Shown: in pieces, positions 10,483 through 39,219 of the stretch
How positions within the stretch are numbered: the first letter of the stretch is position 1
Layout of the letters: every line of letters starts with the position of its first letter
NCBI RefSeq assembly: GCF_026240635.1
Contig: NZ_CP110848.1
Span: 3,739,741-3,803,740, forward strand
From: Trichothermofontia sichuanensis B231
GTDB taxonomy: Bacteria > Cyanobacteriota > Cyanobacteriia > B231
DNA: 64,000 nt
Direction of reading: 5' to 3'
Made by a program: the position numbers and the translations under genes
The notes under the pieces: generated by a model
What the model was told of the DNA's origin: nothing
The model's database searches: none
What the model saw: only the letters and a program-made list of their open reading frames with translations

Positions 10483-11191
10483 ACAGCAAAACTCTCTAGG
10501 TCAATGGGGATAGCGAGCAGGTAAGATTACCTGACTGAATTTTAACTTCTGTAAACTTTTGCCAGGCCACGATCGTTGGTCCCCAAAGCTAACCTACGGC
10601 GTGAAGCTGGGCATAGGGCCATAAGCGATAAGTATTTTGGCTTATGTGCGGGCTTCCAACCAGCACGGTTCAGGGTAACCAGGACAAGCGGGCACTTACA
10701 GAGGCCAAACCAGTCCTCTGAGTAGCGTACAAGTTTGGTAGATCCTACGAAGCGCCTGAGTTGAGAGATCTTCACGTTTCTTCAAACTGACAGGTGCTTC
10801 GACAATAACTGGCAATCACGGATACCGTTTGGCAGACCCACGGGGGGCGGGGGGCCTCTAGCTCGCGTCTCCCGTTGGGCCGTTTAATTCCTAGACCTTA
10901 ATTCCTAAAACTGACTGATCAGGATGCTGCCTAAATTAGCCGGACTGCTCCTATGCTTCACGGGACAAGCTGAGTGGGAAACCCCATCGATATCTATGCA
11001 TTCAGATTGTAAGCCGTTATAACGGTAGGGTAGGCAGTTGCCTGGGCTAGGGCGCGGGGCAATCTCTGGCGCGATGATCCAATGGAGACACGGCGCGAAT
11101 GGGGTTTAACAAACGCCCTGTTGATCGGTGTTAATGCTTCAAGAGAGATGGCTTTGAGAGATGTGAGTTGTTTGCCAAAAGGTTTCTAGCC
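10483..11191. other. 709-bp spacer between dxs and FHA/CHAT gene
   Basis: Divergent promoter region for dxs (leftward) and the secreted giant (rightward). No tRNA or coding frame is supported. Two small symmetric sites stand out: AGGTAA-GATT-ACCT near 10530, in the dxs leader, and the perfect 12-bp palindrome CCGTTATAACGG at 11014-11025. Confidence 0.45.
11014..11025. promoter_or_regulatory. 12-bp palindrome upstream of the FHA/CHAT gene
   Basis: CCGTTATAACGG is a perfect palindrome 167 bp before the ATG at 11192. It may be a dimeric regulator site. Its function is unproven. Confidence 0.35.
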
Positions 11192-14100
11192 ATGAAATAC
11201 CTGCTGCCAGTTGTTCTTGTCTTTCCGATCGCGGGTACCCTATTGCTAGGGGTTGCCGATGCCCAGCCCATTACCCCCGCCCAGGATGGCACGGGGACGA
11301 TTGTTCGCCCTGTGGGCGATTCTTCAGGGGAGACGCTGCGCGAACGCTTCGATATTGAAGGGGGTAAAACCTCCCGCGATGGAGCCAATCTGTTCCATAG
11401 TTTTCAACGCTTCAACCTCAGCAAACAGCAAATCGCCAATTTTTTAGCCAATCCCCAATTACGCAATATCCTCGCTCGGATTGTTGGGGGGGGGGCGTCT
11501 TACATTGATGGGTTGATTCAAATCAGTGGGGGCAATCCCAATCTCTTCCTCCTGAATCCAGCGGGGATTGTGTTTGGCCCGAATGCGTCGCTCAATGTAC
11601 CGGCAGATTTTACCGCCGTTACTGCGCATGGCATTGGGTTTGACCAGGGCTGGTTCACGACGATCGGGTCGCCGGAGTATGCCCAACTGGTTGGGACCCC
11701 GAATCAATTTGCCTTCACAACGGTGCAGCCAGGCGCGATCGTTCAGGCTGGTAATCTCACGGTTTCTCCTGGTCAAAATTTGCGCCTGTTCGGGGGGACG
11801 ATTGTCAACACCGGCAACCTATCGGCCCCTGGCGGGGAGGTCACGATCGCAGCGGTACCAGGGGCCAATCTGATTCGCCTCAGCCAGCCCGGACACCTGT
11901 TGAGCCTGGAAATGACTCCCCTGGCGGCCCAAAGTGCTGGGTTAGCCACCCCCTCCCTGCCAGAACTGCTGACTGGGGGAAGGGTAAGTGGGGCAACTGG
12001 GTTAGCCGTGATGCCAGACGGACGCGTACAACTACAGGGATCGGGGGTGGTCGTGCCAACGGATGCCGGAACCGCGATCGTGGCAGGGCCAGTCAACGCG
12101 GCATCCCCCCAAACCGTCGGTGGCAACATTAATGTCTTCGGTCAGCAAGTGGGCCTCCTGGGGGCGGATCTCAACGCGTCGGGCACGCGGGGAGGGACCG
12201 TGCGGATCGGGGGAGATTATCGGGGTCTGGGGGCTGTCCCCAATGCCCAATTCACCTATACCGATGCCCATAGCCACATCCGGGCTGATGCCCTCAGCAA
12301 GGGTGACGGCGGGCGGGTGATTGTCTGGGCCGATGACACCACCCGCTTTTATGGTCAGATTTCTGCGCAGGGGGGACCTGAAGGGGGTAATGGGGGATTC
12401 GTCGAGACCTCTGGCAAGTTGGGGTTAGATATGACCGGCGCAAGGGTAGACGCCCGCGCTCCCCAGGGTCAACCTGGCTCTTGGCTCCTGGACCCCAGCG
12501 ATATCACGATTTCTGAGGGACCGACCATCCCTGCTAATCTGGGTCCTAATTTTAATCCCAGTGGGGCTACCGCCAATATCAATGCCCAACAAATTTCCGA
12601 TACCCTGAGCCAGGGGACCAGTGTCTTCATTACCACGGCTGGCGGCACCGGGGGACAGGGAAATATTACGGTAGCGGCTCCAATCTTTAAAACGGCTTTG
12701 GTTGACGACAGTATTTATGATGATGACAACATCCCAGATGATGGTAACAACATCCCAGGTAGTGAAGCCACCTTGAGTTTGGCCGCTGATAACAACATCA
12801 CCGTGGATCGGTCGATCCGGTCTGACTACTATCCTCTTAATGTCAGGTTGTCAGCCCCGAATGGTGTCATTGTGATCAACAGTGCGATCGAAACCAATGG
12901 TGGGAGTGTTGTTACGCAGAGTCGGGGGTTGACTGCCGGGGCGATCGATACCAGCCCGATCGAATATATCCCTCCCCCCGATCTCTCACCCAGAGTGGTA
13001 CCGCCTCAGGGGTTTACGACGGAGAACGCTGGCAACATTAATCTCAATGTCAGCACCGGTAATATCCGGGTAGAAACTGTGCGGGCGGAAGGATTGAGGG
13101 GGGAGGGGGCTGGGGGCAATGTATCCCTTCAGGCTCCTGTCGGCACTGTACGTGTCCAGAGTACGGTGGCATTGGATACCTTCTCGCCCTGTTTTGGCAC
13201 CAGTATCTGTACCAGTGGAACTCCCGCTGGCAGGGTGAGTATTACGCATGGGGGGGGGATCGATAATTATGACTTCGTAGTCGGGAATGCGACCAATAAT
13301 GGCACGGCTGGGGCCATTGTCTCCCAGGGAACCCTGAGTCCGACGGCGAGCTTTCCCGTTCTACCGACAGGGGGTACAGCGGCGAATACACCGAGTGGGA
13401 TTACGATTACTTCCATTAACAGTCCCCCCACTTTGACGGTCGCCCTAACGATTACAGGCCCGGTTGAAGGCGAAACGTATGTGTTCCCAGCTAGTCAGTT
13501 GGGGTTAAGTGCAACTGATCCTGACGGCGATCGCTTATCTTCTGATCCCGGTACGTTTCCCGCTGGCGGCTTTTTAATCACTGCCCTTGAGACAGGGGGA
13601 ACCCTTCAGGTGCAGCGATCGCCGCTGGATGCGCCGGTCGATGTCATTCCTGGGCAAACCCGGATTTTGCCTACGGATACCCTGTTGTACACGCCACCCC
13701 CGAATACCACGGGGCTTGAGCCGGGGTTGAGGATTGCGGTCCAGGAAGTTCGCAATGCCAGCTTTTCGCCTGCACTCAATACGGTGGAACGACCTGTCCG
13801 CTTTCTGGTAAGCGCCAGACCAGGGCCAACAGAGCCAACGCAGCCAACGCAGCCAACGCAGCCAACGCAGCCAACGCAGCCAACGCAGCCAACGCAGCCA
13901 ACAGAGCCAACGGGACCAACAGGGCCAACAAGGCCAACGGGACCAACTGAAGGACCACCCGAAATTGTTCAGGTCAGGTATCCTGACTTGCCGACGATCA
14001 AGGATTCTGTTGTCACGATCGATACGGTGGTGCGTCCCCTGGAGGAAAACTTCACCCGGCAGTTTACGGACCAGCTTGGGCAACCTATGCCGCCCATTCG

Positions 14101-15283
14101 CACGCGGGATGAGATTCAGGAAATCCTGGCACAGGTTGAACGCAATGAAGGGATTAAGCCTGCGATCGTTTATATCAGCTTTATCCCAGCAGCCCTAGAA
14201 GGTGAGCTTCCTGGCGTTCTGCAAGAGCGACGCGCTGATGATCAACTGGAATTGGTGGTGGTTACCCGTGAAGGACCGCCCATCCGCAAACGGTTGTCCA
14301 CGGTGCGCCGCTCCCAGGTGATAGAAGTGGCGCAGGAGTTTCGGCTTCTAGTGGCGGTGCCGGATGAGGTGACGAGCACAGATTACCTGCCCCTGGCCCA
14401 ACAACTCTATCAATGGTTAATTGCCCCGATCGCGGCTGATTTGCAGGCGCGGGAAATTAATCATTTGGTCTTTATCCCGGATGTGGGGTTGCGATCGTTA
14501 CCCTTTGCCGCCTTGCACGATGGTCAGCAGTTTCTGATTGAACGTTATAGTGTGGGGCTGATGCCGACGGTGAGTTTGGCAGATACCCGCTACAAGGATG
14601 TGCGGGACGTTTCGGTGCTGGCAATGGGCTTATCCCAGGCTGTTCAGGGCCAGCAGCCCTTGCCCGCCACCCGCTCGGAAATCCAGGCCATGTTAAGTCT
14701 ATGGCCGGGGCGGGCCTACTTTGATGAGGATTTCACCCAGGCAACTCTGATCCGGGCGCGTCGCAAGACTCCCTATGGAATCGTCCACCTGGCGACCCAC
14801 GGTGATTTCAGTCCGGGTAATATCGCCAATTCCTATATTCAATTTTGGGATGGGCGCTTGCCTTTAGATCGAGTCCGACAGTTAGGCTTCAATTCACCTG
14901 CCGTCGATTTGCTTGTCTTGAGTGCCTGTCGTACAGCGTTGGGCAATGAACAGGCGGAGTTAGGATTTGCGGGCCTTGCCTATCAAGCGGGTGTCAAGAC
15001 GGCTGTGGCGAGTCTCTGGTATGTCAGTGATGCCGCTACTGCTGGGCTAATGACCAATTTCTACGCCACCTTGAAGGAAGTCCCGATCAAAGCGGAGGCC
15101 CTCCGACGGAGCCAGGTGAATATGGCCACAGGTAAAATCCGGGTAACGCCAACTGGGTTAGCAGGTGTAGCAACTGTTGATTCCTTACCGCTACCCCCCG
15201 CTAGTTTGATGGGGATTACGACGCCGGACTTTTCCCATCCGTACTATTGGGCGGCCTTTACGACGATCGGTACCCCCTGGTAA
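11192..15283 (+). CDS. Secreted FHA-domain/CHAT-protease fusion
   Basis: 1363-residue multi-domain protein. Residues 1-25 (MKYLLPVVLVFPIAG...) look like a signal peptide. About 30-330 is a filamentous-haemagglutinin N-terminal (two-partner secretion) domain with the hallmark NPNLFLLNPAGIVFGPNA. A beta-helix-like region runs to about 600, then a cadherin-like segment with ATDPDGDRL. A PTQ/PTG linker occupies about 880-925. The C terminus (about 1000-1363) is a CHAT domain, a caspase-like cysteine peptidase: IVHLATHGDF holds His1203 and LVLSACRTALGN holds Cys1246, so the catalytic dyad is intact. The ATG at 11192, with AAAAGG upstream, starts the signal peptide properly; an in-frame TTG at 11168 does not. 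No TpsB/ShlB-type outer-membrane transporter is nearby. Target and regulation are unknown. Confidence 0.9.
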   Translation: MKYLLPVVLVFPIAGTLLLGVADAQPITPAQDGTGTIVRPVGDSSGETLRERFDIEGGKTSRDGANLFHSFQRFNLSKQQIANFLANPQLRNILARIVGGGASYIDGLIQISGGNPNLFLLNPAGIVFGPNASLNVPADFTAVTAHGIGFDQGWFTTIGSPEYAQLVGTPNQFAFTTVQPGAIVQAGNLTVSPGQNLRLFGGTIVNTGNLSAPGGEVTIAAVPGANLIRLSQPGHLLSLEMTPLAAQSAGLATPSLPELLTGGRVSGATGLAVMPDGRVQLQGSGVVVPTDAGTAIVAGPVNAASPQTVGGNINVFGQQVGLLGADLNASGTRGGTVRIGGDYRGLGAVPNAQFTYTDAHSHIRADALSKGDGGRVIVWADDTTRFYGQISAQGGPEGGNGGFVETSGKLGLDMTGARVDARAPQGQPGSWLLDPSDITISEGPTIPANLGPNFNPSGATANINAQQISDTLSQGTSVFITTAGGTGGQGNITVAAPIFKTALVDDSIYDDDNIPDDGNNIPGSEATLSLAADNNITVDRSIRSDYYPLNVRLSAPNGVIVINSAIETNGGSVVTQSRGLTAGAIDTSPIEYIPPPDLSPRVVPPQGFTTENAGNINLNVSTGNIRVETVRAEGLRGEGAGGNVSLQAPVGTVRVQSTVALDTFSPCFGTSICTSGTPAGRVSITHGGGIDNYDFVVGNATNNGTAGAIVSQGTLSPTASFPVLPTGGTAANTPSGITITSINSPPTLTVALTITGPVEGETYVFPASQLGLSATDPDGDRLSSDPGTFPAGGFLITALETGGTLQVQRSPLDAPVDVIPGQTRILPTDTLLYTPPPNTTGLEPGLRIAVQEVRNASFSPALNTVERPVRFLVSARPGPTEPTQPTQPTQPTQPTQPTQPTQPTEPTGPTGPTRPTGPTEGPPEIVQVRYPDLPTIKDSVVTIDTVVRPLEENFTRQFTDQLGQPMPPIRTRDEIQEILAQVERNEGIKPAIVYISFIPAALEGELPGVLQERRADDQLELVVVTREGPPIRKRLSTVRRSQVIEVAQEFRLLVAVPDEVTSTDYLPLAQQLYQWLIAPIAADLQAREINHLVFIPDVGLRSLPFAALHDGQQFLIERYSVGLMPTVSLADTRYKDVRDVSVLAMGLSQAVQGQQPLPATRSEIQAMLSLWPGRAYFDEDFTQATLIRARRKTPYGIVHLATHGDFSPGNIANSYIQFWDGRLPLDRVRQLGFNSPAVDLLVLSACRTALGNEQAELGFAGLAYQAGVKTAVASLWYVSDAATAGLMTNFYATLKEVPIKAEALRRSQVNMATGKIRVTPTGLAGVATVDSLPLPPASLMGITTPDFSHPYYWAAFTTIGTPW
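13834..13905. repeat. 9-bp tandem repeat coding the PTQ linker
   Basis: Seven tandem CCAACGCAG-type units encode seven Pro-Thr-Gln triplets in the linker between the adhesin-like half and the CHAT domain. Degenerate units (PTE, PTG, PTR) lie on both sides. Such an array can change length by slippage without breaking frame. Confidence 0.85.
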
Positions 15284-21421: not shown

Positions 21422-23089
21422 ATGCGAACTGGACAACCCCAGGTATCACCCTCTCCCGAACCAGAACTGGCTGTGAACCAAGACCCAGCATCGGCTAACT
21501 TAGACTGTGCAGCGGTTACCCCCGCTCCGGCCAGACCTTGCTTCACTCCAGCCACTGGCCAGCTATCGCTGGTTCAGCAGTTGCAACAACAGGTTCAACG
21601 GCTGGATCTGCTCAACCGCATTAACGCCACGATCCATCGCAGTTTGGATTTAGCAACGGTTTTACAAACGATCGTCACCGAGGTGCGCCAATTCCTCCAG
21701 ACCGATCGCGCTGTTATCTACCAGTTTGAGGCAGATTGGCAGGGCCAAGTGGTGGTCGAAGCCGTGGAGGGAACTTGGCAGCCAGTCTTGGGCACCATTG
21801 GTCGGGATGATTGTTTTTCGGGAGAATATGCCCACCTGTATCTGGCGGGCCGGGTGCGGGCAATTGATAATGTTGCAACTTCGACCCTGGGAGACTGTCA
21901 TATCCGCTTCCTCCAGCGTTTGCAGGTTCAGGCAAATTTGATCGTGCCGATTTTGGTTGGGGATGGTTCGCCGGATGCGTCGCATAATCGTCTGTGGGGT
22001 CTCCTCATTGCCCACGAATGTCGCGGCCCCCGCCACTGGCTTCCCTGCGAGATGGAGTTTCTCCAGCAATTAGCCGCTCAGGCCGCGATCGCGATTCAAC
22101 AAGCTGAACTCTACACCCAGGTTCAACGTCAGGCGGAGCAAGCCCAACGTCAGGCGGAGCAATTGCAGGCAGCCCTGACGGAATTGAAATCGACGCAAGC
22201 GCAATTAATTCAAAGCGAAAAGTTGTCGAGCTTGGGACAAATGGTGGCAGGGATTGCCCATGAGATCAATAACGCCAATACCTTTGTCCATGCCAATCTC
22301 CCCTATGCCAGCCGCTATTTTGAGGTCTTTAGTCGCCTCGTTGATCGCTACGAGACAGTGGGTTTGACGTTGCCAGTGGCCGAGCGCCAAGCCCTAGTGC
22401 ATGGGATCGCCGAGATTCTCGAGCTACCAGAAGCCGAAACCGCCTCACCTCCGGAACTCGTGGATCTGGTAGCGGCGGAATTGGACTATATCCGACAGGA
22501 CTGCGCGCAGCTGATGCGATCGATGGAGGAGGGAAGTCGTCGCATCCGGGAAATAGTGCTGTCCCTGCGCAACTTTTCCCGCCTTGACGAGGCCGGCTAT
22601 AAGGTCGTTGATCTCCACCAGGGGTTAGATAGCACCCTGTTAATTCTCCAGCATCGGTTGCAACAGGGTATTCGCCTTGTCAAGGAATATCAATCCCTGC
22701 CCCAGGTGGGCTGTTACGCAGGGCAGATTAACCAGGTCTTTCTCAACCTGTTAAACAATGCAATTGATGCCGTGACCCTTCCCCATGAAGCTGCTACGCC
22801 GCCGCCAGCCGCGGTCATTACCATCCGTACTTGGCAACCGGATCCCGACTGGGTCGTGATCGCGATCGCGGATACCGGACCGGGCATTCCCCTGCCTGTT
22901 CAGGCGCGGATGTTTGATCCCTTCTTCACCACCAAAGCTGTGGGACAGGGACGCGGCCTAGGGTTGGCGATCGCCCGTCAGATCATTGTTAATGGCCACG
23001 GAGGCGAATTGCGCTGTATCAGTGAACCGGGTCAGGGCACTGAATTTCAGGTCTGGCTGCCGGTGCGTTCTGAGCACCTGACCCGCTAA
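21422..23089 (+). CDS. GAF-domain histidine kinase, candidate DXCF cyanobacteriochrome
   Basis: 555-residue cytosolic sensor kinase. Residues 60-230 form one phytochrome-type GAF domain. It has the Asp-Asp-Cys-Phe motif (129-132) and a Cys-His pair (159-160) in the segment GDCHIRFLQRLQVQANLIVP. In cyanobacteriochromes a DXCF motif plus a CH motif provide the two cysteines holding a bilin, and such domains usually sense blue/green or violet light. A short coiled coil with duplicated RQAEQ follows (231-265). HisKA has the phospho-acceptor His280 in AGIAHEIN. The HATPase part has N-box LNLLNNAIDAV, ADTGPGI, FDPFF and GQGRGLGLA. All kinase motifs are intact. There is no receiver domain, and no response regulator is adjacent. 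Bilin binding is inferred; non-photosensory GAF domains can resemble this. Confidence 0.88.
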   Translation: MRTGQPQVSPSPEPELAVNQDPASANLDCAAVTPAPARPCFTPATGQLSLVQQLQQQVQRLDLLNRINATIHRSLDLATVLQTIVTEVRQFLQTDRAVIYQFEADWQGQVVVEAVEGTWQPVLGTIGRDDCFSGEYAHLYLAGRVRAIDNVATSTLGDCHIRFLQRLQVQANLIVPILVGDGSPDASHNRLWGLLIAHECRGPRHWLPCEMEFLQQLAAQAAIAIQQAELYTQVQRQAEQAQRQAEQLQAALTELKSTQAQLIQSEKLSSLGQMVAGIAHEINNANTFVHANLPYASRYFEVFSRLVDRYETVGLTLPVAERQALVHGIAEILELPEAETASPPELVDLVAAELDYIRQDCAQLMRSMEEGSRRIREIVLSLRNFSRLDEAGYKVVDLHQGLDSTLLILQHRLQQGIRLVKEYQSLPQVGCYAGQINQVFLNLLNNAIDAVTLPHEAATPPPAAVITIRTWQPDPDWVVIAIADTGPGIPLPVQARMFDPFFTTKAVGQGRGLGLAIARQIIVNGHGGELRCISEPGQGTEFQVWLPVRSEHLTR

Positions 23090-23395: not shown

Positions 23396-25975
23396 CTAAT
23401 GGGCAGCCCTCGTTGAGGACTCGTCTGCATCCGGCTTTGCCGCCTCAGACGGCGGTGCAGGGGGGCAGAAGGGCTGGCCTGGTGGGGGCAGGGGGGACGG
23501 CTGGGGGAGGAGAATGGTACTTGGCTCGTCTGGGATGGGGGTTTCTGGAGCAGGCACTGCCTCTGCCTGATCGCCGTTGGGGATTTTCGGGGTGGGGTGT
23601 GCTAGAAAGGCGGTATGGGCTGACCAAACGATGGGTTCCGGATCGTGTCGGGTAGCTCGGTCCCCAGTCGGGAGCACAGGGCCAGTGGCTCGCTGGGCAG
23701 CCAGGGAAGCTGGCCCCCGCCGCTGGACTGTCTGGTTAACCCAGTCGTCTCCAGGCGTTGGCTGGAGTTCAGTAGGCAGCGTGGCGATCGCGGCCAGCAC
23801 CTCTGATGCGGATGCATAGCGTTGAGTGCAGTCAGGGTAGACCATCTGATCAATCAGTGCGACGAGGGCTGGCGACACCTGGGGCACCAGCTCATGCCAG
23901 AGAATCGTCCCCGTAGCTGGATCCTGTTCCAAACGACGAGGGGAAAAGCCCGTCAGGGCTTCGATCGCAATCATCCCCAGGGCGTAGAGATCACTGTTGA
24001 ACTGGGGTCGCCCCGCCGATTGTTCACTTGGCATATACCCCGGTGTACCCACGGCGATCGTAAATTTCGTGTTGGGGTCTAGGTCTGCAATCTGGGTTGA
24101 TACCTTCTTCGCGATGCCAAAGTCGATAATGACTAGCCGTTGATCGGATTGGCGACGGAGAATATTAGAGGGTTTCAGGTCCCGGTGAATCACGCCCTGG
24201 CTATGGATAAAGGCCAACACGGGCAGGAGATCCGCCAACATCTGCACCACCTGGGTGGGTGAAAACCGCCGCTCGATCAAGAGTTCACTAGCCAGGGAAC
24301 AGCCCTCAATCAACTCCTGCACGATATAAAACCCTTGGCCTTCCTCAAAAAATGCCAGTAATTGGGGAACCTGAGGATGTTGTCCCAACCGTTCGAGAGC
24401 GTCGGCTTCCGTTCGGAATAATCGGCGGGCGAGTTCTAAGACCTTGGGGCTATCGGTGACGACCTTGAGTTGCTTAACCACACATTGGGGATGGCCGGGA
24501 CGCTGGGTGTCTTCTGCGACATAGGTTTCGCCAAACCCCCCCGATCCTAACACCCGTACAATTTTGTAACGATTGCTTAAGAAGGTACCCGCGAGGGCCT
24601 GTTGTCGGGCTTGGAGGAGATCCTGGAGATCCTCCTGCTGACTGATAATTTCCTGGACGATGGGTGACGTGGCGTAATGCTTGAGGGTATCTCGTAGCTG
24701 CCGTTTCCGGCGTTGTTCTTGCGCTGCACCCACCACTAACTCAACCAAACCCCCCAAGAAAATTGTGCCTGCCGGGATTGCGATCGGCAGGATCAAATTT
24801 CCTCGTACCAAGGTGACATATCCCAGGACCAACCAGCTACTGCCTAGCCCCACCGCTAGGCCCCATCGCCCCAGGAGCGATCGCGGACGGGTCAGCACCC
24901 AAGTCGCCCCTGCGGTCACGATCAAAACGGCTAAACCCCGGAGGGGGGCCGGCGGGATGGCGTCGGCGATCGCACGGCCCTGCAAGAGGGTGGCGATCGC
25001 CGTGGCATTGATCACAATCCCTGGCATTTTTTCTGGGAATAGCCAACTATTGGCAAAGGGGGTGGCGTGAAAGTCCTGATGGGCGAGGGCGGTCGATCCC
25101 ACCAGCACAATCTTGTCCCGGAAGTAGGCCCCCGACTGGAATTGCTTTTGCCAGGTGTCGGGATCTAAGACATCCAGGAAGGCGACCTGATCAAAGGCGG
25201 AAGCTGGCCCGTAGAAGAACAGATTGCTGCCAGCCGGTGTTGGGTAGGAGAGTTGGGCCGCCTGCAGGGTCGCCTCGGCAAAGGTGGGGATGCCACGGGC
25301 TAACGCCTGAAAGGCAACGGCTTGGGCTGGTGGTAAGCGCCGTAATTGCTCGCTGACGAATTGACTACCTAACTGGTGAATCCGACCATTGGCGTCAATT
25401 GGGTAGTTAATCGTCCCAATCTTGGCCAGCGCTTCAAATTGGGGAAGGGGAGCCAACAGGCGATCGATGCTGCCCGTCTGATTTTCCTGGGGAGCATATT
25501 GGGCCGCCAGGACAACCTGATCCCCCCTCCGTGCAAGAACCGCCGCTAGCGCACGATCATCCTCGGGACCATAGAGGCTAGGGGTGGTCAACAGTAAATC
25601 AAGGGAAACCGCTCGCGCTCCCGCTTGCAAAAGGCGATCGATCACTAGGGCATAGGTCTGCCGTTGCCAGGGCCAGGTTTGGATGAGGGAGAGGTAGGGC
25701 CGATCGATCCCAGCCCGTTGATACTCACTCGCCAGTCTCAGGGCATTGTCATCGATCGTCAGGATGACGATATTAGCTGGGGTGGGGACGGGTCCCCGCA
25801 GCTCAAAAAAGAGGGCCTGGGTCTGTCGCTCCAGCATCTGCACCCAAGGCAGATCGAAACCGGTCGCTAAAGCCGCGAGCAAAACCACCCCAGCAACTCC
25901 CCAATTCTCCCAATGCTGTCCCTTGAGCAGGTGTTGAATCCGCGTGACTGCCGTTGCTAGTCGTGTTGCTCGCAT
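23396..25975 (-). CDS. CHASE2-domain serine/threonine protein kinase
   Basis: 859-residue membrane receptor kinase. A membrane helix at about 27-42 is followed by an extracytoplasmic CHASE2 sensor (about 45-330) containing FFELRGPVPTPANIVILTIDD and the closing FRDKIVLVGSTALAHQDFHATPF. Three further helices lie at about 345-420. After a linker comes a eukaryotic-like kinase (about 470-735): GSGGFGETY, Lys501 in VVKQL, HRDLKPSN with Asp599, IIDFG with Asp618. All catalytic residues are intact. The last 120 residues are Pro-rich and probably disordered. ATG 25975 and GTG 25978 are equally possible starts. It shares architecture with the kinase at 32311-34587. Ligand and targets are unknown. Confidence 0.93.
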   Translation of the reverse strand: MRATRLATAVTRIQHLLKGQHWENWGVAGVVLLAALATGFDLPWVQMLERQTQALFFELRGPVPTPANIVILTIDDNALRLASEYQRAGIDRPYLSLIQTWPWQRQTYALVIDRLLQAGARAVSLDLLLTTPSLYGPEDDRALAAVLARRGDQVVLAAQYAPQENQTGSIDRLLAPLPQFEALAKIGTINYPIDANGRIHQLGSQFVSEQLRRLPPAQAVAFQALARGIPTFAEATLQAAQLSYPTPAGSNLFFYGPASAFDQVAFLDVLDPDTWQKQFQSGAYFRDKIVLVGSTALAHQDFHATPFANSWLFPEKMPGIVINATAIATLLQGRAIADAIPPAPLRGLAVLIVTAGATWVLTRPRSLLGRWGLAVGLGSSWLVLGYVTLVRGNLILPIAIPAGTIFLGGLVELVVGAAQEQRRKRQLRDTLKHYATSPIVQEIISQQEDLQDLLQARQQALAGTFLSNRYKIVRVLGSGGFGETYVAEDTQRPGHPQCVVKQLKVVTDSPKVLELARRLFRTEADALERLGQHPQVPQLLAFFEEGQGFYIVQELIEGCSLASELLIERRFSPTQVVQMLADLLPVLAFIHSQGVIHRDLKPSNILRRQSDQRLVIIDFGIAKKVSTQIADLDPNTKFTIAVGTPGYMPSEQSAGRPQFNSDLYALGMIAIEALTGFSPRRLEQDPATGTILWHELVPQVSPALVALIDQMVYPDCTQRYASASEVLAAIATLPTELQPTPGDDWVNQTVQRRGPASLAAQRATGPVLPTGDRATRHDPEPIVWSAHTAFLAHPTPKIPNGDQAEAVPAPETPIPDEPSTILLPQPSPLPPPGQPFCPPAPPSEAAKPDADESSTRAAH

Positions 25976-26246
25976 CACGTATCCCCCAGAAGATCGGTCC
26001 TACTCAACCCCCTCTGGCTCCGTGGGCGGCAGGGAAGCCACCGCGTCGTGCCCTGAAGGCCGGGGCGCGGGGGAAGCGGGTGAGGGGTCTTGGTTCATTG
26101 CTGGCTTAACCTCACGCAAAGGTCTAAAGTCTACAGATGCACCCGCCAGTGCCATTGATTTGGGTGTCTTGGGTGGACCCTGCAGGGATTTCTAGTCTGG
26201 CACAGGCGCCTAAATCGATGCAGGCTGGCCAGTCATCTGCTGGGCA

Positions 26247-32310: not shown

Positions 32311-34587
32311 TTACTCCAATTGCTTCAATGCCTGTAGCACTTCCGTCGCTGAGCGATAGCGATCGGTAAAGAAATAGCAAACCATTTTGTCCAGAATGGC
32401 CGCAAACTCCGGTGTGACTTTTGCTAACGGGTGCCAGGGGAGTTCACCCTCCTCATTGCGTTGGGGGAGGCGCGTGGGCGGAATGCCCGTTAATGCCTGA
32501 ATGCAGATCATGCCAAGGGCATAGAGATCACTACTGAGATTCGGCGACCCCAACAACTGCTCCGGCGGCGCATAGCCCCGTGTCCCGATCGCCACCGTAA
32601 GCGCTTCGTCTTCGTTATCCACCTGGGGATTCAGTTGTTTCACGGCGCCAAAGTCAATCAGAACGGGATGCTGGTCGCTATCCCGAATGATCACATTGCT
32701 CGGCTTAATATCGCGGTGGATCACATGGCAAGCATGAATGGGAATGAGAATCTCTAGCATCCCCTTCAGCCACTCGATGACCCAAGCTTCGGACTGCCGT
32801 TTGTCGGGGGGTAAGAGATCACACAGCGATTGACCTTTGATAAATTCTTCGACTAAATAAAAATCATTCTCGGCCTCATCTTCAAAATAGGCCAGCAGTT
32901 GGGGGATATATTTCTGCTTGCCCAGCATTTCCAGGATGCTGGCTTCCGCCTTAAATAGGCGGCGGGCAATGTCCATGTGGCGAGGGTTCTTTTGGGCCAA
33001 GAGGAGGCGTTTGACAACGCAGATAGGACGGCCCGGACGGTGGGTATCCTCCGCCAGGTAGGTTTGACCAAAGCCCCCTGAACCCAGGAGTTGGGTGATC
33101 TGGTAGCGATCGGCCAATAGGGGCCGGGTACTGTCACTCAGGGTGAGAGGAACGGGGCGATCGACGAGAGCTGTCTGTTCCTCTAAGACCGTTTGCATCA
33201 GCAACAGTTCGTCGTCACGCACCTGCACCAGTCGGGTCAGTCGTTGTTGCTCTTGGTGGAGTTGGTAGGCCACGCAGGCCATCATGCTGCTCCCAGTTGC
33301 CACCCAGGCGATCGCCGGCGTGGCCACGGGAATCCAGCCACCGAGCCAAAAGCTGCCCATGCCGACGCCCCCGATTACCCCGATCCCTAGCAGGAATAGC
33401 CCCCCCAAGCGCAGCGGATGGCGAATGCGGTAAACCAGGAGTGCGCCGCCCACGGACCACAGGGCAATCCAGACCCCCTCTAGCCACTCCGGCCAGAACC
33501 AGAACAGAGGCCGCTCACCCAACACGGCTGATAGGATTTGACTGGTTTGCTGGGCGTGAATCATGACGCCCGGAACCATAAAGTCACCCGTGTCCGCCGC
33601 GCTATAGGGGGTGGGGAGTAAATCCTTACCGCTAGGGGCCGTTGTCCCAATCAGGACGATCTTATCCTTGATCCAAGTGGGATCAACGTCCCCCGCCAAG
33701 ACCTCACCCAGGCTCACTAGGCGTGCCCCCTGTTTATAGTTGCGATAATTCAACAGGAGTTGGTAGCCACCCGCATCCACATGGCGATAGCCGCCGGAGG
33801 TGGATTGGAGGGGCTGGAAGTTGGCTTGGCCCCACTGGAAACGGAGTCGGCTATCTGGCTCTGAGGGGATGATTCCTGCCTGGAGAAGGTACGCTTTGGC
33901 TAGCTGAAAGGATAGGGAATAGACAGTTAGATCCGGCTCAATCCAACCAAAGAGAAAGTTACGCCGTACCACATTATCCTTATCCACCACCAGGTCATTA
34001 AAGCCAACCTGTCCTGGCTCAACCCCAGGCGGCGGGGCGACTTGTGTGGTTGTTAAATCCCCCAAGGTGGTAATGACAATGACATTATCGGCCTGGATCT
34101 GCTTAAGAAAGTCGGCATCCTGGGATTGATCACGCAGGATATCCAGACCAATCAGGCGGGCCTGTTGAGCCTGCAAAGTCCCCAGGAGTTGGGCCAAAAC
34201 GGGGTCAGGGATGGGCCAGCCGTGGGCCTGGATATCGGCTTCAGTAATCCCCACCACTAGGAGACGGGGATCGGGGGGCAGCGGTGAACGCAGGCGCACC
34301 ATCTGGTCGTAAACGGCCACTTCCGCCGCTTCGAGCCAGCCTAGCTGGCGGACTCCCAAGACTAACCCCAGCGTGAGTACGGTGGTGAAGACGATCGGTT
34401 GCCGGAGATTCTGGCCGAGTTGACGCAGGGTATCCCGCGATTGCGAGGTCGGGACGATCACTGTGGCCCCGCGCAACAGGAACGATCGGCATCGCTGCCA
34501 AGCTTGCAGCAGCAAACGATGCTTGTGGGTTTCCCAGAGCGGTTCATTCATTGGTGCAGACAGTGCTACGATCCCGATCAGCCTCAA
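32311..34587 (-). CDS. CHASE2-domain serine/threonine protein kinase, second copy
   Basis: 758-residue membrane receptor kinase built like the one at 23396-25975. TM1 is at about 65-85, the CHASE2 sensor at 90-350 (YDQMVRLRSPLPPDPRLLVV, then IKDKIVLIGTTAPSGKDL), a three-helix membrane block at 365-440, and a coiled linker follows. The kinase spans 495-757: GSGGFGQTYLAEDTHRPGR, Lys526, HRDIKPSN with Asp626, and LIDFG with Asp645. It lacks the Pro-rich tail of the other kinase. The start is unsettled: TTG 34587 follows GGAGACC at tight spacing, and ATG 34551 lacks a ribosome-binding site. Both give a full sensor. The kinase domains of the two proteins share long identical stretches, so they are paralogues. 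Confidence 0.92.
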   Translation of the reverse strand: MRLIGIVALSAPMNEPLWETHKHRLLLQAWQRCRSFLLRGATVIVPTSQSRDTLRQLGQNLRQPIVFTTVLTLGLVLGVRQLGWLEAAEVAVYDQMVRLRSPLPPDPRLLVVGITEADIQAHGWPIPDPVLAQLLGTLQAQQARLIGLDILRDQSQDADFLKQIQADNVIVITTLGDLTTTQVAPPPGVEPGQVGFNDLVVDKDNVVRRNFLFGWIEPDLTVYSLSFQLAKAYLLQAGIIPSEPDSRLRFQWGQANFQPLQSTSGGYRHVDAGGYQLLLNYRNYKQGARLVSLGEVLAGDVDPTWIKDKIVLIGTTAPSGKDLLPTPYSAADTGDFMVPGVMIHAQQTSQILSAVLGERPLFWFWPEWLEGVWIALWSVGGALLVYRIRHPLRLGGLFLLGIGVIGGVGMGSFWLGGWIPVATPAIAWVATGSSMMACVAYQLHQEQQRLTRLVQVRDDELLLMQTVLEEQTALVDRPVPLTLSDSTRPLLADRYQITQLLGSGGFGQTYLAEDTHRPGRPICVVKRLLLAQKNPRHMDIARRLFKAEASILEMLGKQKYIPQLLAYFEDEAENDFYLVEEFIKGQSLCDLLPPDKRQSEAWVIEWLKGMLEILIPIHACHVIHRDIKPSNVIIRDSDQHPVLIDFGAVKQLNPQVDNEDEALTVAIGTRGYAPPEQLLGSPNLSSDLYALGMICIQALTGIPPTRLPQRNEEGELPWHPLAKVTPEFAAILDKMVCYFFTDRYRSATEVLQALKQLE

Positions 34588-37645: not shown

Positions 37646-37706
37646 TCCCAGGGGAATGATCTTTAGCAGGGGGGGGAATGATCTTTAGCAGGGGAATGAT
37701 CGCTAG
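37646..37706. repeat. 18-bp tandem repeats at a receiver gene end
   Basis: Three units of about 18-21 bp (GGGGAATGATC with TTTAGCA or GCT) cover the stop region of the receiver gene at 37663 and encode the repeated DHSPAK/DHSPPC of its tail. Confidence 0.75.
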
Positions 37707-38160
37707 AGGTAGCCATTGTCACGGTTCTCAAGTGATCGTTATGACCTCGATGGCCCTCTTGGGGGGGCGTTGGCGGAGGCCGTTTGATCAGGTTGTCCAC
37801 CATTGCCCGCAGTTGCTCGGCAGCAAAGGGTTTGGTGAGATATTCCGTCGCCCCTGCCACCCGACCCTGGATTTTGTCGAAGGGACGATTGCGGGCAGTT
37901 AGCATAATGATGGGCAGACTACGAAATTGCTCGATGCTTCGGATAATGCGGCACACTTCCAGACCATCAACATCGGGCATGGACACATCTAACAAAACCA
38001 AATCAACTTGCTCATAGTAAATGCGGGCCAGGGCTTCGATGCCATTCTCGACGGTAATAATGTGGTAATCCGGCTCCAGCGCCCGTCTGACCAAGGTGTG
38101 ACTGAGGGGGCGATCGTCTACTGAGAGAATAACTGGAACCGTATAAGAGCTAACAGGCAT
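37663..38160 (-). CDS. Single-domain response regulator, PilG-like
   Basis: 165-residue CheY-like receiver. The acidic pocket is in VDDRP, phospho-acceptor Asp58 in LVLLDVSMPDVDG, and the conserved Lys110 in GATEYLTKPF. The segment DKIQGRVAGATEYLTKPFAAE resembles PilG-type regulators of the type IV pilus chemotaxis-like systems of cyanobacteria. After residue 125 a His/Pro-rich tail (PPTPPQEGHRGHNDH, then DHSPAKDHSPPC) is encoded partly by tandem GGGGAATGATCTTTAGCA units, a repeat-driven extension. GGGAGG stands just before the ATG. It is a clear paralogue of the next gene upstream (38489-38890), including its upstream region. Confidence 0.92.
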   Translation of the reverse strand: MPVSSYTVPVILSVDDRPLSHTLVRRALEPDYHIITVENGIEALARIYYEQVDLVLLDVSMPDVDGLEVCRIIRSIEQFRSLPIIMLTARNRPFDKIQGRVAGATEYLTKPFAAEQLRAMVDNLIKRPPPTPPQEGHRGHNDHLRTVTMATSSDHSPAKDHSPPC

Positions 38161-38488: not shown

Positions 38489-38890
38489 TCAGGCAGATGT
38501 CTCTGAAGGTAACTTGACCAGTTTCGCCACCACTTCACGCAGATGCTCGGCTTCAAAGGGTTTCGTGAGGTATTCTGTTGCCCCTGCGACTCGGCCCTGG
38601 ATCTTGTCAAAGGGGCGATCGCGGGAGGTCAACATAACAATGGGCAAGGTATGGAATTGTTCGAGCGTGCGAATTGTTCGGCACACCTCTAGGCCATCCA
38701 CACCGGGCATGGACACGTCTAACAAAACTAGATCGACGGTCTCATGATAAATTTTTGCCAGGGCCTCGACGCCATTGTCTGCCGTGATGACTCGGTAGTC
38801 AGGCTCTAGTGCCCGCCTGACCAGGGTGTGAATCACAGGACTATCATCGACTGCTAGTACGATCGGGACGCTATGGGAGCTAACAGGCAT
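38489..38890 (-). CDS. Single-domain response regulator, PilG-like paralogue
   Basis: 133-residue CheY-like receiver, nearly collinear with the product of 37663-38160: both start MPVSS, share Asp58 in LVLLDVSMP, and share DKIQGRVAGATEYLTKPF with Lys110. It lacks the long repeat-encoded tail. ATG 38890 with GGGAGGT five bases upstream is preferred to the in-frame start at 38896. As a receiver without output domain it probably acts by binding partner proteins, for example in pilus-based motility, which is inferred from PilG likeness. No kinase, CheW or methyl-accepting protein gene is in the window. Confidence 0.92.
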   Translation of the reverse strand: MPVSSHSVPIVLAVDDSPVIHTLVRRALEPDYRVITADNGVEALAKIYHETVDLVLLDVSMPGVDGLEVCRTIRTLEQFHTLPIVMLTSRDRPFDKIQGRVAGATEYLTKPFEAEHLREVVAKLVKLPSETSA

Positions 38891-39219
38891 GGACACCTCC
38901 CGGCATTTCTCCTATGGAGGCGCTACGCGAATGCAGCGTTCTCCTTCTACACTGTATTCTTAGGATTCCCTGTTCCGTCCGTTTGTGTTGATTAATTCAT
39001 AGAGCTTAACGACATTCAGTGTGAGGCAGCGTAATGTTAGCTTTCCTAAAGATGTGACTAGAGGAGAGGGCATCTAGTTAATTCAGTTTGAGGCAATGAT
39101 TGGGGTTGTGCGGGCGAGGGGACGACGGTGTTTGGTAGCGGTGTTGGTAGCGGTGTTAATCGGTCGGATCAAGCGCCAAACCTTAACGGTGTACTGAGTC
39201 AATTAGGTAGAGGCTGGAC
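38891..39219. other. Spacer upstream of receiver gene 2
   Basis: 329 bp between receiver gene 2 and the end of moeA. It includes the promoter-like segment shared with the other receiver gene (near 38980-39010) and a family A end fragment (39161-39216). No coding frame is supported. Confidence 0.45.
39161..39216 (+). repeat. Family A element, right-end fragment
   Basis: CGGTCGGATC through GTGTACTGAGTCAATTAGGT to AGAGGCTG matches the last 55 bp of the full copy at 61917-62136. It ends three bases before the moeA stop codon. Confidence 0.75.

Follow-up and report, generated by a model that had tools for sequence, protein, structure and literature searches.

A predicted DXCF-type dual-cysteine cyanobacteriochrome histidine kinase with a variant H-box in Trichothermofontia sichuanensis B231

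The gene at 21422..23089 (+ strand) of the window, the stretch of 64,000 nucleotides from T. sichuanensis B231 (NZ_CP110848.1, positions 3,739,741 to 3,803,740) analyzed here, almost certainly specifies a histidine kinase to which a small light sensor is fused. Taken as a whole, the protein (555 aa from ATG) is very probably a DXCF dual-cysteine cyanobacteriochrome histidine kinase with a blue/green photocycle, in which light would alter the phosphorylation of H280. It adds a good further example to a known class, which includes compact DXCF-GAF kinases and published cyanobacteriochrome kinases, and, being small (555 residues with one photosensory domain), it is useful for the study and engineering of light-controlled phosphorylation.

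Domain organization and identity of the GAF domain

The putative start codon at 21422 is the choice of the annotation. All features of the protein are encoded on the + strand. Pfam identifies a GAF domain, of the bilin-binding type, at residues 76-225 (21647..22096; 80.5 bits against a cut-off of 22.4) and the ATP-binding HATPase_c domain at residues 435-549 (22724..23068; 93.3 bits), so that the arrangement proposed in the initial annotation, a single GAF ahead of a kinase core, is upheld. The residues named in that annotation also agree exactly with the translation: the motif DDCF with the second cysteine, C131 (residues 129-132; 21806..21817), recognized from sequence and conservation, and the motif CH, i.e., the canonical bilin-binding cysteine C159 followed by H160 (residues 159-160; 21896..21901), both lie within the Pfam GAF match. 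The secondary structure of the AlphaFold2 model, which has a mean pLDDT of 82.7 with values that mostly exceed 90 within the GAF, assigns residues 208-279 (22043..22258) to a helix that connects the GAF to the kinase, followed by the H-box HEINNAN (residues 280-286; 22259..22279) with the phospho-acceptor H280 and with Ala285 in the position occupied by proline in most relatives.

The Pfam HisKA model matches nowhere in the 555-aa protein; nevertheless, the DHp region is clear from homology to histidine kinases. H280, the N-box and the G-boxes are intact, and H280-E281 is invariant among 44 aligned sequences, so that the protein combines the phospho-acceptor His-Glu and the HATPase_c domain expected of HisKA-type kinases. 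Among the matches listed in an NCBIfam search, only general kinase models appear, all below the cut-off; PADLOC yields no matches, and a promoter and terminator scan gives no signal above shuffled controls.

Searches of the PDB identify cyanobacteriochromes as the best sequence matches of the GAF, namely 6oap (3.3e-42), 8k9o (RcaE; 1.2e-37) and TePixJ (2.9e-25). The best match in both sequence and fold is the dual sensor histidine kinase 6oap/6ob8, on whose GAF the AlphaFold2 GAF superposes at about 2 Å with 41% identity; unlike the DDCF of the window protein, this protein has a tyrosine where the DXCF cysteine would be (DQYF), and its sensor part is longer. In a tree of 98 sequences, the window GAF falls on the bilin side, with 99% support for the split from 18 non-bilin GAFs. 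Placement among non-bilin GAFs, named beforehand as the outcome that would speak against the bilin assignment, is rejected in a careful tree of 78 sequences, where forcing this grouping changes the log-likelihood by -177 units (p-AU 1.6e-66). C131, F132, C159 and H160 are each kept in at least 90% of the 44 aligned sequences, whose identity to the window protein is 45-57%; hence the DDCF/CH pair is beyond chance. Genes for one bilin reductase and two heme oxygenases are present in the genome, which gives the cell the means to produce the pigment. Thus, tree and AU test, PDB and fold matches, cysteine conservation and bilin genes all support the two-cysteine cyanobacteriochrome GAF that had been read from the DNA, with a bilin predicted to be attached. 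A group that holds this GAF with 95% support in a quick tree was dropped and no sub-lineage is claimed, given that this group lacks strong support in the careful tree; the latter contains no strongly supported sub-lineage that would join the window GAF with any characterized protein.

Alternatively, the GAF might bind no bilin and sense something else, the cysteines being relics or redox-active residues. The canonical cysteine is gone in some relatives (the second GAF of L054, and L108, L112 and L113), so this trait can be lost, and the N-terminal GAF found in relatives is missing from the window protein; however, every pocket residue checked is present, 21 of the 27 positions checked are identical to TePixJ, and both cysteines are retained across relatives at 45-57% identity, which, together with the AU test, makes loss of bilin binding very improbable. 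The gene could also be a truncated, decaying remnant of a longer two-GAF kinase, as the about 170 additional N-terminal residues of the relatives and the modelled disorder of residues 1-42 would allow. The reading frame, in contrast, comprises 596 open codons with zero internal stops, the sensor and kinase motifs are intact, and complete compact GAF-kinase genes are present in other cyanobacteria; accordingly, decay of the gene appears extremely improbable.

Color tuning and predicted photocycle

The two tuning sites of the window GAF are V110 (21749..21751) and L167 (21920..21922), which in an alignment with NpR6012g4, AnPixJg2 and TePixJ occupy the columns that we take, from our own reading of the NpR6012g4 numbering, to be those of the beta-2 strand Phe and the helix Phe, respectively, of red/green GAFs. 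The red/green references carry Phe in both columns, as do some compact kinases of other cyanobacteria (L120-L123), whereas TePixJ has Val and Leu like the window GAF. The Phe pair is associated with red/green and teal photocycles (PMC5240096). A teal-type DXCF sub-lineage was considered and rejected, the window GAF having V110/L167 instead of Phe/Phe; assignment to the red/green (XRG) cyanobacteriochromes likewise fails, as the window GAF reads IGRDDCF where these require WxDxxL without the DXCF cysteine. Typical DXCF domains have a blue/green photocycle and bind phycoviolobilin (PMC11284453). Given this typical behavior and the tuning residues shared with TePixJ, a blue/green photocycle is the best guess for the window GAF.

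Among the named systems, the GAF of TePixJ (3vv4, 4glq; blue/green DXCF) resembles the window GAF in the register of the DXCF and CH cysteines as well as at the tuning sites; by annotation, however, TePixJ is a methyl-accepting chemotaxis protein rather than a kinase, and the two GAFs are distant in trees. DpxA from Fremyella diplosiphon is also of the DXCF type. It is a teal/yellow cyanobacteriochrome, the kinase activity of which has been measured (PMC4937213). DpxA and the window protein share the combination of a cyanobacteriochrome with kinase signaling, which in the latter case is predicted; compared by description only, DpxA senses yellow and teal light, whereas the window GAF lacks the teal-linked Phe pair.

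The dual-cysteine photoreceptor could instead retain phycocyanobilin or be otherwise tuned, e.g., to violet/blue with orange/red. The tuning of dual-cysteine GAFs is varied and only some of them isomerize the bilin (PMC5240096), and the window GAF is not strongly grouped with TePixJ in trees; against this stand the combined match of DXCF, CH and the Val/Leu tuning sites to TePixJ and the binding of phycoviolobilin by typical DXCF domains (PMC11284453). A photocycle of other colors is therefore possible but doubtful.

Under the blue/green interpretation, phycocyanobilin would be supplied by the heme oxygenase and bilin reductase of the cell, would attach at C159, and would probably be isomerized to phycoviolobilin. 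In the dark, C131 is predicted to make a second bond, to C10 of the bilin, yielding a violet/blue-absorbing state; in the light, isomerization of the bilin would release C131 and give rise to a green-absorbing state. The signal could then travel down the helix past residue 208 into the DHp helix and alter the ATP-dependent phosphorylation of H280, from which the phosphate would be passed to a response regulator encoded elsewhere in the genome. Both the direction of signaling and the existence of such a distant partner are presumed in this scheme.

The HEINNAN H-box

The H-box reads HEINNAN in the window protein and its close relatives, as opposed to HEINNP in most cyanobacterial relatives of the kinase; consequently, the conserved hinge proline, located five residues past the phospho-acceptor histidine, is missing and replaced by Ala285. 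Because the remaining core aligns with HEINNP kinases, this substitution appears to mark a variant within the HisKA type rather than a kinase outside it. In a kinase-domain tree built with the H-box residues masked, 61 HEINNP sequences are separated from 17 others with 99% support, and 16 of these 17, the window protein included, are of the Ala type. A scan independent of the GAF, using a DNA pattern for HE[IV]NNAN against 390 genomes of the class, detects 8 sites including that of the window, all 8 in kinases with a DXCF/CH GAF. Across the collected loci, with some duplicates included and with a bias from the way the loci were gathered, the DXCF/CH pair occurs in 51/52 HEINNAN ORFs versus 17/80 HEINNP ORFs; the sole HEINNAN ORF without the pair is cut off by a contig end.

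According to one proposal for HisKA kinases, the DHp helix kinks at a conserved proline, and this kinking sets how far the histidine lies from the reaction center (PMC5231405). The AlphaFold2 model of the window protein has a single unbroken helix from residue 208 to 314, running through H280 (moderate confidence). With the hinge proline missing, ordinary kinase switching is not assured. We tentatively propose, with distinctly less than even confidence, that the HEINNAN kinases constitute a family apart, made up of dual-cysteine photoreceptor kinases whose switching does without the proline hinge of HisKA, the window protein being the minimal, single-GAF form; light would then be coupled to the kinase/phosphatase balance via a different helix motion. 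The HEINNAN trait, which was not encountered in the papers found through searches on other terms, may be new. Loss of the hinge proline throughout a family, always observed alongside a dual-cysteine sensor, makes the role of the proline kink in HisKA signal transfer testable.

Related kinases and gene neighborhood

The relatives are about 50-55% identical to the window protein over residues 44-550, come mainly from Oscillatoriales, and retain DXCF and CH in nearly all cases. The HEINNAN kinases of Oscillatoria, Microcoleus, Tychonema and others (L021-L049 and more) share the DXCF/CH GAF and the HEINNAN core but, unlike the window protein, possess a further GAF, which is either an N-terminal one of the non-bilin type or another of the DXCF type. 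All 8 relatives examined with Pfam have a longer N-terminal sensor region, which contains a domain of the GAF_3/GAF_2 type in 7 of them and a phytochrome-type GAF with a PHY region in the eighth, from Nostoc. Within the HEINNAN family, no complete member with a single GAF other than the window protein was seen, in a comparison where the taxonomic order of T. sichuanensis B231 is represented by this genome alone and near relatives are thus missing. As its start falls approximately at the inter-domain linker of the relatives, it looks like a form without their N-terminal domain. Other cyanobacteria have compact DXCF-GAF kinases with the ordinary HEINNP H-box (L111, L115, L116, L120-L123). The compact photoreceptor kinase envisaged in the initial annotation therefore stands as far as the single GAF ahead of the kinase core is concerned, with the refinement that it is an exception within its own family and that such compact kinases already exist elsewhere.

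Several observations concern the GAFs of other proteins. In Nostoc relatives, the Asp of DXCF is lost. The Nostocales-type proteins L050, L052, L053, L055-L061, L074 and L114 have an N-terminal phytochrome-type GAF (with a PHY region in L052) and a second GAF with a GCF/ECF-like motif that lacks the DXCF Asp and keeps the CH cysteine. In L108, L112 and L113, the GAF that precedes the kinase keeps the DXC cysteine, with the CH cysteine replaced by Glu, Thr or Ser (EH, TH, SH), and these GAFs are possible second-cysteine-only domains. The window genome itself encodes at least 5 further GAFs with D-x-C-F and CH or CY, in larger proteins (L010, L011, L012, L013, L015, L016).

The neighbors of the kinase gene encode a glycogen phosphorylase, a phosphoglucomutase-type protein, a CHASE2 Ser/Thr kinase and a class V aminotransferase. 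No cognate response regulator is adjacent, as had been noted from the DNA: a whole-genome search locates the nearest receiver domains about 14.6 kb downstream (37798-38130 and 38528-38860, - strand), in two tandem stand-alone receiver genes (37663-38160 and 38489-38896, - strand) with products 73% identical to each other, and no evidence links this pair to the kinase. Among 41 loci of HEINNA kinases, the window included, receivers occur within the fetched flanks of only 3 others, at distances of 2.4 kb or more. The window kinase is an orphan, as its relatives usually are. A type III pantothenate kinase gene is found near 34 related loci and is absent from the window. Elsewhere in the window, the gene at 11168-15283 (+) encodes a 1371-aa protein in which a TPS secretion domain is combined with a CHAT protease-like domain at the C terminus. 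Two membrane-type Ser/Thr protein kinases are encoded within 10 kb (23396-25978 and 32311-34587, - strand); Pfam identifies the CHASE2 sensor in the former, and the latter is similar by eye.
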